A DNA stretch of 64,000 nucleotides from an uncultured Bacteroidota bacterium. GTDB taxonomy: Bacteria > Bacteroidota > Bacteroidia > Flavobacteriales > Flavobacteriaceae. Positions 11,487 through 14,821 of this stretch are shown in pieces (position 1 is the first letter of the stretch; every line of letters starts with the position of its first letter). The stretch covers positions 62,001 to 126,000 of the forward strand of contig CACIXU010000002.1 in assembly GCA_902590705.1 (NCBI GenBank), given 5' to 3'. Made by a program: the position numbers and the translations under genes. The notes below the pieces were generated by a model. The model ran no database searches. It was given only the letters and a program-made list of their open reading frames with translations, and was not told the origin of the DNA.

Positions 11487-11501
11487 GTTGAATAAATAAA
11501 A

Positions 11502-11537
11502 CAAAAAAAACCGCCATGAACCATGGCGGTTTTTTTT
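11502..11537. terminator. bidirectional terminator between aacS and rng
   Basis: The perfect 8-bp GC-rich stem CCGCCATG/CATGGCGG with loop AAC is flanked by an A-run on the left and a T-run on the right, so it can end both the plus-strand aacS and the minus-strand rng transcripts. Its T-run overlaps the rng stop codon at 11536-11538. Confidence 0.9.
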
Positions 11538-13095
11538 ATCTAATTCGAAGTAGTCTTCTATTTTTATCTAGAAACCTGAACTCCAAATAAAGGTAAGCAT
11601 CTCGGGGAACTATACGTACCCACTTTTTGTATTTAATAAGCCAGTTAGCCCGGATGGAAGGGGTTCCGCTGGTTAGATAAGCTGCCAAAAAAGGATGAAT
11701 GTGTAAATACAAATCTTTCTTTTTATGGCTCCTATACTTGACAATCTTGTCAAGTTCTGCGTTGATTTTATCAATTATAACAATCGGCGCCTCTACTTCC
11801 CCATTTTTGTTGGGGTTGGGTTCTCTTGTTTTAATATTCATCTCAGGGCGAACCCTTTGACGTGTGATTTGAATTAATCCAAATCTACTAGGTGGAAGAA
11901 TTTTATGTTTAGTTCTATCACCTTTCATCTCTTCTCGAAGATGTTCAAATAATTTTTTTCGATTTTCGTTTTTATTAAGGTCAATAAAATCTACAACAAT
12001 TATACCTCCTAGATCTCTTAACCTGACTTGTCTAGCAATTTCACTAGCTGCAATTAGATTAACATCCAAGGCAGTTTGCTCTTGAGACCTAGCTTTATTA
12101 GATCTATTACCGCTATTGACATCTATGACATGCAAGGCCTCGGTATGTTCAATTACCAAATAGGCACCTTTTTGCATTGAAACTGTCCTACCAAAAGCGG
12201 TTTTGATTTGTCGTTCGACTCCGAAATAATCGAAAATAGGTCTAGATTTATTTTTAAAATACTTAACGATAGATACTTTATCGGGAGCAATGATCTTCAA
12301 GTAATCCTTAATCTCATTTTGCATTTCAGGATCATCTACATGTATTCCAGTAAAACCATTATCGAAAATATCTCTAAGAATTGATGTAGAACGATTAATT
12401 TCACTCAAAATTTTAGAGGGATAATTATCTACTTTAGTAAATTTCTCACACAAATTCTTCCATCTGCTTAATAGTTGTTGTAAATCCGCATCTAGTTCCT
12501 TGACTTTTTGGTTATTAGCCACAGTTCTTATTATCACTCCAAATCCTTTAGGGCGAATACTTTTTACCAATTTTTTCAAACGGGTTTTTTCAGCATTGCT
12601 CTCAATTTTTTGTGAGATAGAAATGCGATCTGAAAAAGGGATTAAGACCATAAACCTTCCAGCCAAAGACAATTCAGAGCTGACTCTTGGACCTTTAGTT
12701 GAAATAGGTTCTTTGACAATTTGAACAAGTATATTTTGCTGGGGCTTCAAATAGTCTTGAATTGAACCATCTTTAGGAATTTCTTTTTCAAAACGAAAAT
12801 TTTTTAAAGAATAATCTTTCATTTTACCTGAGCTTACCAGTTTAAAAAACTTTAATAAAGAGAGCAAATTAGGACCTAAATCATGATAATGTAAAAAACC
12901 ATCTTTTTCATGACCTACATTAATAAATGCAGCATTTAGTCCTGATACAGGTTTTCTGATTTTGGCTACATAAATGTCACCCACAGAGAACTTGTTACTG
13001 TCTACTTCTTTATTTAGCTCAATTAATTTTCCATCCTTGAGCAGTGCAAAATCAACGGCAGAGGAATTCGATCGTATAATCAATTCTTTATTCAC
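11536..13095 (-). CDS. rng: ribonuclease G / E family endoribonuclease
   Basis: A 519-residue RNase E/G family endoribonuclease, taking part in rRNA maturation and mRNA turnover in the cytoplasm. The N-terminal S1-like domain carries GDIYVAKIRKPVSGLNAAFINVG near residues 42-64. The catalytic DNase I-like domain shows the metal-binding aspartates in VIDVNSGNR (about 324) and VVDFIDL (about 368). No long RNase E C-terminal scaffold is present, so it is RNase G-like. It follows HU and a 29-residue basic protein on the same strand, an arrangement I recall from other flavobacteria. Confidence 0.93.
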   Translation of the reverse strand: MNKELIIRSNSSAVDFALLKDGKLIELNKEVDSNKFSVGDIYVAKIRKPVSGLNAAFINVGHEKDGFLHYHDLGPNLLSLLKFFKLVSSGKMKDYSLKNFRFEKEIPKDGSIQDYLKPQQNILVQIVKEPISTKGPRVSSELSLAGRFMVLIPFSDRISISQKIESNAEKTRLKKLVKSIRPKGFGVIIRTVANNQKVKELDADLQQLLSRWKNLCEKFTKVDNYPSKILSEINRSTSILRDIFDNGFTGIHVDDPEMQNEIKDYLKIIAPDKVSIVKYFKNKSRPIFDYFGVERQIKTAFGRTVSMQKGAYLVIEHTEALHVIDVNSGNRSNKARSQEQTALDVNLIAASEIARQVRLRDLGGIIVVDFIDLNKNENRKKLFEHLREEMKGDRTKHKILPPSRFGLIQITRQRVRPEMNIKTREPNPNKNGEVEAPIVIIDKINAELDKIVKYRSHKKKDLYLHIHPFLAAYLTSGTPSIRANWLIKYKKWVRIVPRDAYLYLEFRFLDKNRRLLRIR

Positions 13096-13236: not shown

Positions 13237-13326
13237 CTATTTTTTCTTGTGGCGGTTTGCTCTTCTACGCTTTTTTCGTTTGTGCGTGGCTACCTTATGC
13301 CGTTTCCTTTTTTTACCACTAGGCAT
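13237..13326 (-). CDS. 29-residue Lys/Arg-rich conserved small protein
   Basis: A complete ATG-to-TAG frame of 29 codons lies between HU and rng on the same strand. It begins MPSGKKRKRHKVATHKRK and continues with KRRRANRHKKK; about 60 percent of residues are Lys or Arg, with no acidic residue. A start without other frames, the operon position and a composition quite unlike chance AT-rich frames support a real gene. I recall nearly the same short protein from other flavobacterial genomes in this place. The composition suggests RNA or ribosome binding; function is otherwise unknown. Confidence 0.85.
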   Translation of the reverse strand: MPSGKKRKRHKVATHKRKKRRRANRHKKK

Positions 13327-13359
13327 AGTTAAATTTAAATTTGTTTTTGTAAATAATTT

Positions 13360-13690: not shown

Positions 13691-13698
13691 CAAATATA
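13691..13698 (-). promoter_or_regulatory. -7 box of the HU promoter
   Basis: On the minus strand TATATTTG is a perfect TAnnTTTG, 41 bases before the HU start. Together with the box at 13735 it makes the HU-mutY gap a divergent promoter region. No clear -33 TTG. Confidence 0.45.
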
Positions 13699-13777: not shown

Positions 13778-14821
13778 ATGATTTTTCATAAAAAGTTGTT
13801 GGAATGGTTCCTCGATCACCGTCGCCCATTTCCATGGCGAGAGAATAATAACCCATATAATGTATGGCTATCAGAGATTATTTTGCAGCAGACTAGGGCT
13901 AATCAAGGATTACCTTACTATCAAAGATTTGTAAATACTTATCCCAAAATAGATTATTTGGCTAAGGCTGAACAAGAAGATATTTTAAAACTTTGGGAGG
14001 GGTTGGGATATTATTCAAGAGCTATAAACCTTCATTCTACAGCCAAACAAATTGTGAAAGATTATGAAGGGAGGTTCCCTAGAGATTTTGAAGAAATTAA
14101 AAAACTTAAGGGAATTGGAGATTACACTGCTAGTGCAATTGTATCAATTTGTTTTGGACAAAAACAGGCTGTTGTTGATGGAAACGTGTATAGAGTTCTT
14201 TCAAGGATCTTTGGGATTTATACTCCAATCAATAATTACAATGCTCACAAAATTTTCAAAAAAAAATCGAAAGACTTAATGCAAAATGCACCACCTGGTG
14301 AATATAATCAAGCACTGATGGAATTTGGGGCCTTACAATGTGTCCCCAAACCTAGGTGTGAGGATTGTATTTTCATTAAGAATTGTATTGCATTTCAACA
14401 GGATAAAGTAAGCTTGCTGCCAATCAAGTCAAAAAAAACAAATGTTAAATTAAGGTTCTTTAATTATATAGTTATAATCGATGAGCAGAATAATACTGTT
14501 CTAGAAAAACGAACGTCAAAGGGTATATGGAGAAATCTATATCAATTTCCACTTATTGAACAATTTAATGGACTAGAAAGGTTGAAAGAATCATCATTAA
14601 AAAAAATATTGAATAATTACAATATTGATAAATATTATTTGTTTGAAAAGTGGAATGATAAGCCAATCATTCATAAGTTAACTCATCAACATTTGAAAAT
14701 CGATTTTTGGATTTTAAAGACTTCAAATAGTGAAAAATTAAATATTGAATGGTCAAAAATAGATAGTTATCCCATGCCTAAAGTCCTTCAAAACTTTAAA
14801 GTAAATTTTTTTATTAACTGA
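13778..14821 (+). CDS. mutY: A/G-specific adenine glycosylase MutY
   Basis: DNA repair glycosylase of 347 residues that removes adenine opposite 8-oxoguanine. It has the helix-hairpin-helix core (LKGIGDYTASAI near 109-120), the catalytic Glu in SEIILQQT near residue 32, and the catalytic Asp in VDGNVYRV near 132. The iron-sulfur cysteines follow (GALQCVPKPRCEDC...C, about 185-207), then a C-terminal Nudix-like domain that recognises 8-oxoG (LRFFNYIVIID, WRNLYQFPLIE). The cysteine spacing is C-X5-C-X2-C-X5-C, one residue shorter in the first gap than the usual C-X6-C. It is followed by ssb, gldE and gldD, the common flavobacterial order. Confidence 0.95.
   Translation: MIFHKKLLEWFLDHRRPFPWRENNNPYNVWLSEIILQQTRANQGLPYYQRFVNTYPKIDYLAKAEQEDILKLWEGLGYYSRAINLHSTAKQIVKDYEGRFPRDFEEIKKLKGIGDYTASAIVSICFGQKQAVVDGNVYRVLSRIFGIYTPINNYNAHKIFKKKSKDLMQNAPPGEYNQALMEFGALQCVPKPRCEDCIFIKNCIAFQQDKVSLLPIKSKKTNVKLRFFNYIVIIDEQNNTVLEKRTSKGIWRNLYQFPLIEQFNGLERLKESSLKKILNNYNIDKYYLFEKWNDKPIIHKLTHQHLKIDFWILKTSNSEKLNIEWSKIDSYPMPKVLQNFKVNFFIN

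Follow-up and report, generated by a model that had tools for sequence, protein, structure and literature searches.

A 29-codon flavobacterial gene identified as that of ribosomal protein bS22, and its apparent losses within the Bacteroidota

Introduction

Ribosomal protein bS22 is a kind of protein that is already known. In Cutibacterium acnes, it is described as a basic helix of 33 residues that lies in a cavity of h27, h44, and h45 and forms a bridge to helix H67 of the 23S rRNA; the same report equates bS22 with eL41 and mS38 and gives an identity of 37% between the bS22 proteins of C. acnes and Flavobacterium johnsoniae (PMC10085706). The bS22 of Borrelia burgdorferi is reported to occupy a pocket of the 16S rRNA that is made of h2, h27, h44, and h45 and to touch H68 of the 23S rRNA. 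The report adds that the Borrelia gene starts with GUG and had no annotation in its genome, and that its product is nearer to bS22 of F. johnsoniae than to bS22 of Mycobacterium (PMC10618245). The mycobacterial protein is described as lying near the decoding center, in a paper that calls bS22 specific to Mycobacteria (PMC6133939); this is contradicted by both of the other reports (PMC10618245 and PMC10085706).

The mitochondrial counterpart, mS38 (AURKAIP1/Cox24), is reported to stabilize h44 and to be needed for efficient mitochondrial translation, and the same source raises the suggestion that bS22 might aid the initiation of leaderless mRNAs (PMC6582356). Like bS22, mS38 has a basic helix, which is C terminal, runs along h44, and contributes to an intersubunit bridge. 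Unlike the peptide described here, mS38 is a longer protein, of which residues 80 to 111 are the resolved part in yeast (PMC6582356).

Here, we examine a very short frame between the genes for HU and for a ribonuclease E/G family protein in a flavobacterial genome. Its product is almost certainly bS22, and in that sense the gene is an ordinary one. It is also a ribosomal gene of just 29 codons, of the kind that annotation can overlook, that could be confirmed from sequence alone.

Results and Discussion

The gene and its neighbors

We refer to the whole stretch of DNA that was analyzed, 64,000 nucleotides, as the window. Translation confirmed what an earlier note had read from this DNA: a complete minus-strand frame of 29 codons (Table 1), whose product is extremely basic and lacks acidic residues. 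The peptide, MPSGKKRKRHKVATHKRKKRRRANRHKKK, contains 17 Lys or Arg, 3 His, and no Asp or Glu, and its calculated pI is 12, which is the program's ceiling. These are the size and composition of a bS22 protein (about 28 to 33 residues, more than half of them Lys or Arg).

Table 1. Coordinates within the window of the bS22 gene and of the features around it
Feature	Position	Strand	Basis and remarks
bS22 (mS38/AURKAIP1-like) small-subunit ribosomal protein gene, 29 residues	13237..13326	minus	ATG to TAG, by translation
HU-family DNA-binding protein, 96 aa	13360..13650	minus	PF00216, E 2.3e-26; upstream gene
rng, ribonuclease E/G family protein, 519 aa	11536..13095	minus	GTG start; PF10150, E 2.5e-96; downstream gene
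Terminator-like hairpin and T tract	11499..11541	minus	Stem of 20 pairs, 6 GC; pattern match only; would close the HU-bS22-rng unit
TAnnTTTG motif upstream of HU	13691..13698	minus	Motif match; 90 occurrences in the window

The start codon lies 33 bases from the HU gene, which has the same orientation, and a MutY-like gene (with HhH-GPD and NUDIX_4 domains) starts at 13778 and is divergent from HU, bS22, and rng. bS22 is probably made from the HU-bS22-rng unit, whose genes would be transcribed together. The putative terminator of this unit is in a region with 3 terminator-like sites, where 1.2 are expected. The TAnnTTTG motif, which we take to be the -7 box of Bacteroidota, is a possible promoter for the unit, weakly so because the motif is frequent in the window. 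Matches to sigma-70-type promoters showed no excess (7 were found and 10.0 were expected from shuffled sequences), and no Rfam family matched between 11480 and 13800.

We also compared the 25 bases upstream of the start codon (13327 to 13351 in the window) with those of its relatives. Across 159 distinct upstream sequences, positions -11 to -14 are A-rich (69 to 80% A) and position -1 is T in 91%. Words that resemble a Shine-Dalgarno sequence were present in only 7 of the 159.

Matches to ribosomal chains

The earlier note had proposed a search of flavobacterial ribosome structures, and a nearly identical chain was indeed there. In a phmmer search of PDB sequences, the peptide matched 7jil_5 (E 4.2e-11), 9i5v_10 (named as an AURKAIP1/COX24 domain-containing protein; E 2.7e-8), and 8fmw_V (bS22 of Borrelia; E 2.1e-6). 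A profile search returned the same three chains, with E values of 1.2e-15 for 7jil_5 and 1.5e-10 for 8fmw_V; neither search brought up an actinobacterial bS22 among its PDB matches. The structure 7JIL is the ribosome of F. johnsoniae (PMC9976891); the main text of that paper mentions neither bS22 nor bL38. The F. johnsoniae chain has the same start as the window's peptide and is identical to it at 28 of the 29 aligned residues. The differences are Arg21 to Ala and one extra residue at the C terminus, for a chain of 30 residues. For B. burgdorferi bS22 (8FMW), residues 1 to 28 align, and 8 of these 28 residues differ from the window's peptide. Thus, the peptide is homologous over its whole length to bS22 chains from solved ribosomes (7jil_5 and 8fmw_V).

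Curated models failed to recognize the peptide. In contrast to mS38, the window's peptide has no match to Pfam COX24_C (PF08213): no hit reached the curated cutoff of 23 bits for the peptide or anywhere in its own genome, and across a 19-row alignment of the family, 4 of the 19 members gave subthreshold hits (best E 0.084). NCBIfam had no hit for the peptide or for the 19-row alignment. The genuine bS22 of two other genomes (G139 and G208) escapes PF08213 too, so we attribute the failure to the model's own limits and file the peptide as bS22, not under PF08213.

Conservation among relatives

We found the peptide in 58 of 60 genomes searched, counting its own, and in all 36 of those that are at least 90% complete. 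Exactly the same peptide is present at 26 loci, including the window's, where it is encoded by 25 distinct DNA sequences that have 0 to 22 differences per 90 bases from the window. These 26 loci have drifted at synonymous sites only, and the peptide is under selection. The cultured flavobacteria Aquimarina macrocephali and Winogradskyella eckloniae also encode the identical peptide.

A composition this simple inflates sequence scores, and this objection is answered by shuffled controls and by synteny. The real peptide had a median score of 63.9 bits over the 58 loci. When 300 composition-preserving shuffles were compared to the same loci, the best score anywhere was at most 32.3 bits, and just 10 of the 300 reached 30 bits. 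Certain shuffles exceeded 25 bits in as many as 57 loci, as expected if they partially match the true gene. The lowest real score, 32.7 bits, comes from a locus that is truncated after 14 codons by the end of its contig, and the second lowest is 41.6 bits.

The earlier note had also described the position between HU and rng as conserved, and had named the absence of the gene from genomes with the same HU-rng order as a reason to abandon its reading. No such absence emerged. In 56 of the 58 loci, bS22 is preceded by HU and followed by rng, all on one strand. The two exceptions are the locus that is cut at its contig end and one with no HU within the 8 kb that were read. This last locus is from a genome of about 0.34 Mb (G051; a single contig, 344,793 bases long, with a listed completeness of 100%), which nevertheless retains bS22. 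A search of plasmids gave no match to the peptide.

Spread across the Bacteroidota

The part of the earlier note that did not hold up is its suggestion that the protein is specific to a lineage. In a sample of 392 genomes (its own and others, at least 90% complete, that were drawn from across the phylum), 377 had a match to the 19-row profile (E ≤ 0.01), and counterparts are reported from Borrelia, Mycobacterium, Cutibacterium, and mitochondria by the sources cited above. The other part of that suggestion, a ribosomal or RNA-binding protein, stands, given the 28 of 29 residues shared with the 7JIL chain.

The genomic address of bS22, between HU and rng, is fixed in most of the flavobacterial loci that we sampled. 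All 15 loci from genomes named as Flavobacterium have the order HU-bS22-rng (F. johnsoniae itself is absent from this set). Among named genomes, the best 80 of at least 251 confirmed places include 79 with both neighbors, and the remaining one reaches the end of its contig. Of the 30 best loci from the phylum sample, with 1.5 kb read on each side, 25 have both HU and rng and 5 have neither. Both sets were chosen by score and are biased towards close relatives.

In family f38, all six loci have HU but lack rng within the 1.5 kb that were read, so the link to HU reaches further than the link to rng. For two f38 genomes, G208 and G139, we located rng elsewhere, at distances of about 95 kb and 135 kb, respectively.

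The distance to HU varies. In 17 of the 30 best phylum loci, HU is 843 to 1,213 bases away, instead of the usual 40 or so. More broadly, HU is about 500 to 1,200 bases upstream of bS22 in 23 of the loci (between L042 and L083), and the enlarged gap leaves room for another element or gene. Separately, a contig titled as Candidatus Rokubacteria (OMJU01000021.1; L137) encodes a peptide identical to the window's. Because HU and rng flank it as well, this is probably a mislabeled or contaminated flavobacterial contig.

Other explanations for the peptide

Could the frame be a chance, untranslated one in an A-rich and Lys-rich spacer? It is very short and its composition is extreme, as such a frame might be, but its start, stop, and residues are conserved while synonymous sites drift, all of the untruncated true loci score far above the shuffles, and the frame recurs across the phylum. 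The pattern of conservation already refutes this idea, to which we assign a negligible probability. A peptide that is translated might instead work with HU or RNase G, as a separate nucleoid or RNA-binding protein outside of the ribosomal subunit. The strongly basic composition would suit this role, as would the neighbors, which are HU and RNase E/G in the 56 loci described above. However, 28 of its 29 residues are those of a chain that was modeled in a solved ribosome, and rng is not an obligatory neighbor, as the six f38 loci and the distances in G208 and G139 illustrate. We consider a nonribosomal role to be very improbable.

That the peptide is a different ribosomal protein is about equally improbable. 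The 30-residue sequence of 7jil chain 5, with its identical entries, is named both as 30S ribosomal protein S22 and as 50S ribosomal protein L38, and one of the two names is likely an error. If the second name were correct, the peptide would be the large-subunit protein bL38. Yet it also matches the Borrelia chain that is named bS22 (8fmw_V), and PMC10618245 distinguishes the bS22 of Flavobacterium, which it relates to Borrelia bS22, from Flavobacterium bL38, which it describes as another protein, close to uL6, uL14, and H95 of the 23S rRNA. Taken as a whole, the evidence is best explained by a gene for bS22, the peptide of the 30S pocket, and we have little doubt of this.

Proposed role

What we observed is the gene, how widely it is conserved, and how closely its product matches a ribosomal chain; the binding site in the 30S pocket and the contact with the 23S rRNA are known from relatives, and by analogy the flavobacterial peptide would bind in the same way. 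It would form a bent helix in the RNA pocket of the 30S subunit (h2, h27, h44, and h45 of the 16S rRNA), where its Lys and Arg side chains would neutralize rRNA phosphates. When the 50S subunit joins, bS22 would touch the 23S rRNA and so provide an extra intersubunit contact. It may thus stabilize or stiffen the upper part of h44, near the decoding center, and steady the 70S ribosome, perhaps including 70S ribosomes that are initiating translation. In this phylum, bS22 might also have a particular part in starting translation where Shine-Dalgarno sequences are lacking, which is plausible but hypothetical.

Apparent losses

Fifteen of the 392 genomes had no match: all seven members of family f50, five of the nine members of genus g122 (which belongs to f38), and three others. 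Those three (G436, G304, and G351) are more fragmented, with 210 to 450 contigs, and G436 has siblings with bS22. Relaxing profile A1 to E = 10 recovered bS22 in none of the 15. As a positive comparison, all six of the other f38 genomes were hit by this profile at E ≤ 2.8e-11; this control comes from f38, outside of f50. One candidate from f50 (G365, partial hit to A1 at E = 0.18) was a stretch of 13 residues within a frame of 305 codons and is not bS22. We also sought a diverged copy with a second profile (A2, from 7 rows) at E up to 10, in the 12 genomes from f50 and g122, which include no positive genome, and found none. With PF08213, the only hits were partial ones of 10 to 13 bits, to short frames of G139 and G204 that overlap with longer frames and are not like bS22. 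As it also missed the genuine bS22 of G139 and G208, it is a weak probe.

The neighboring genes are largely still there. All 15 genomes contain rng, and HU was detectable in 13 of them (not in G365 or G424). bS22 is missing beside HU at five loci from g122 and at five from f50. In the five g122 genomes without bS22, HU is still adjacent to the same convergent gene, with a gap of 84 to 181 bases; the gap between these genes is 291 to 395 bases in five of the six f38 loci with bS22, and the sixth has no such neighbor. In f50, HU is followed by a different gene, so the site of the loss cannot be compared by its gap.

We think it likely that bS22, a protein that even a genome of about 0.34 Mb retains, was lost at least twice in the Bacteroidota: in family f50 and in g122, where the gene would have been removed from between HU and its convergent neighbor while the pocket helices stayed nearly unchanged (see below). 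Judging from the sequences, the missing genes in both groups look like natural losses, although the query is short and a very diverged copy elsewhere in the genome is conceivable, above all in f50. Because certain lineages lack bS22, the protein is not essential in every organism.

We considered whether the losses are tied to salt-adapted, acidic proteomes, which was not supported in g122. There, the ratio of acidic to basic residues in the rng frame is 0.87 to 0.88 in two genomes with bS22 versus 0.75 to 0.94 in the five without it. The ratio is higher in f50 (1.04 to 1.22 in five of the seven genomes; the other two were left out because their longest frame, of 861 codons, is not the 619-codon rng frame). 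However, two genomes of f32 have ratios of 1.06 and 1.07, and bS22 is common in that family. A tentative candidate for a genus of f50 is Salinibacter. A narrow literature search that paired bS22 with Salinibacter found no paper.

Lineages that have apparently lost bS22 might offer a useful contrast for learning what bS22 and mS38 do, for example whether bS22 helps to initiate translation of leaderless mRNAs. If the losses are genuine, such natural nulls would show that the pocket can function without its peptide, and comparing them would be a test of the part that bS22 has in initiation when Shine-Dalgarno sequences are absent.

The 16S rRNA pocket

The 16S rRNA gene was complete in 7 of 18 genomes. 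When another 11 genomes and the window's own genome were searched at the DNA level, a nearly complete gene turned up in its own genome only, with fragments in three others. The comparison of the pocket therefore covers four genomes of g122 (two with bS22 and two without), three of f50, and the window's own genome. Helix names (h27, h44, and h45) were assigned to positions provisionally.

The g122 genomes with and without bS22 show no difference in h27 or h45 and very little in upper h44. Nine columns of the 16S alignment separate the two groups, and one of these is at the alignment's 5' edge. A few positions of h27 differ among the window's own genome, f50, and g122. In h45, the 16-base stretch of its own genome (GTACCGGAAGGTGCGG) is shared with all but one of the seven other sequences; the exception is a member of f50 (G255). 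At the 3' end, the 16S rRNA gene of the window's own genome reads GGAACACCTCC, versus GGATCACCTCC in the other seven sequences compared.
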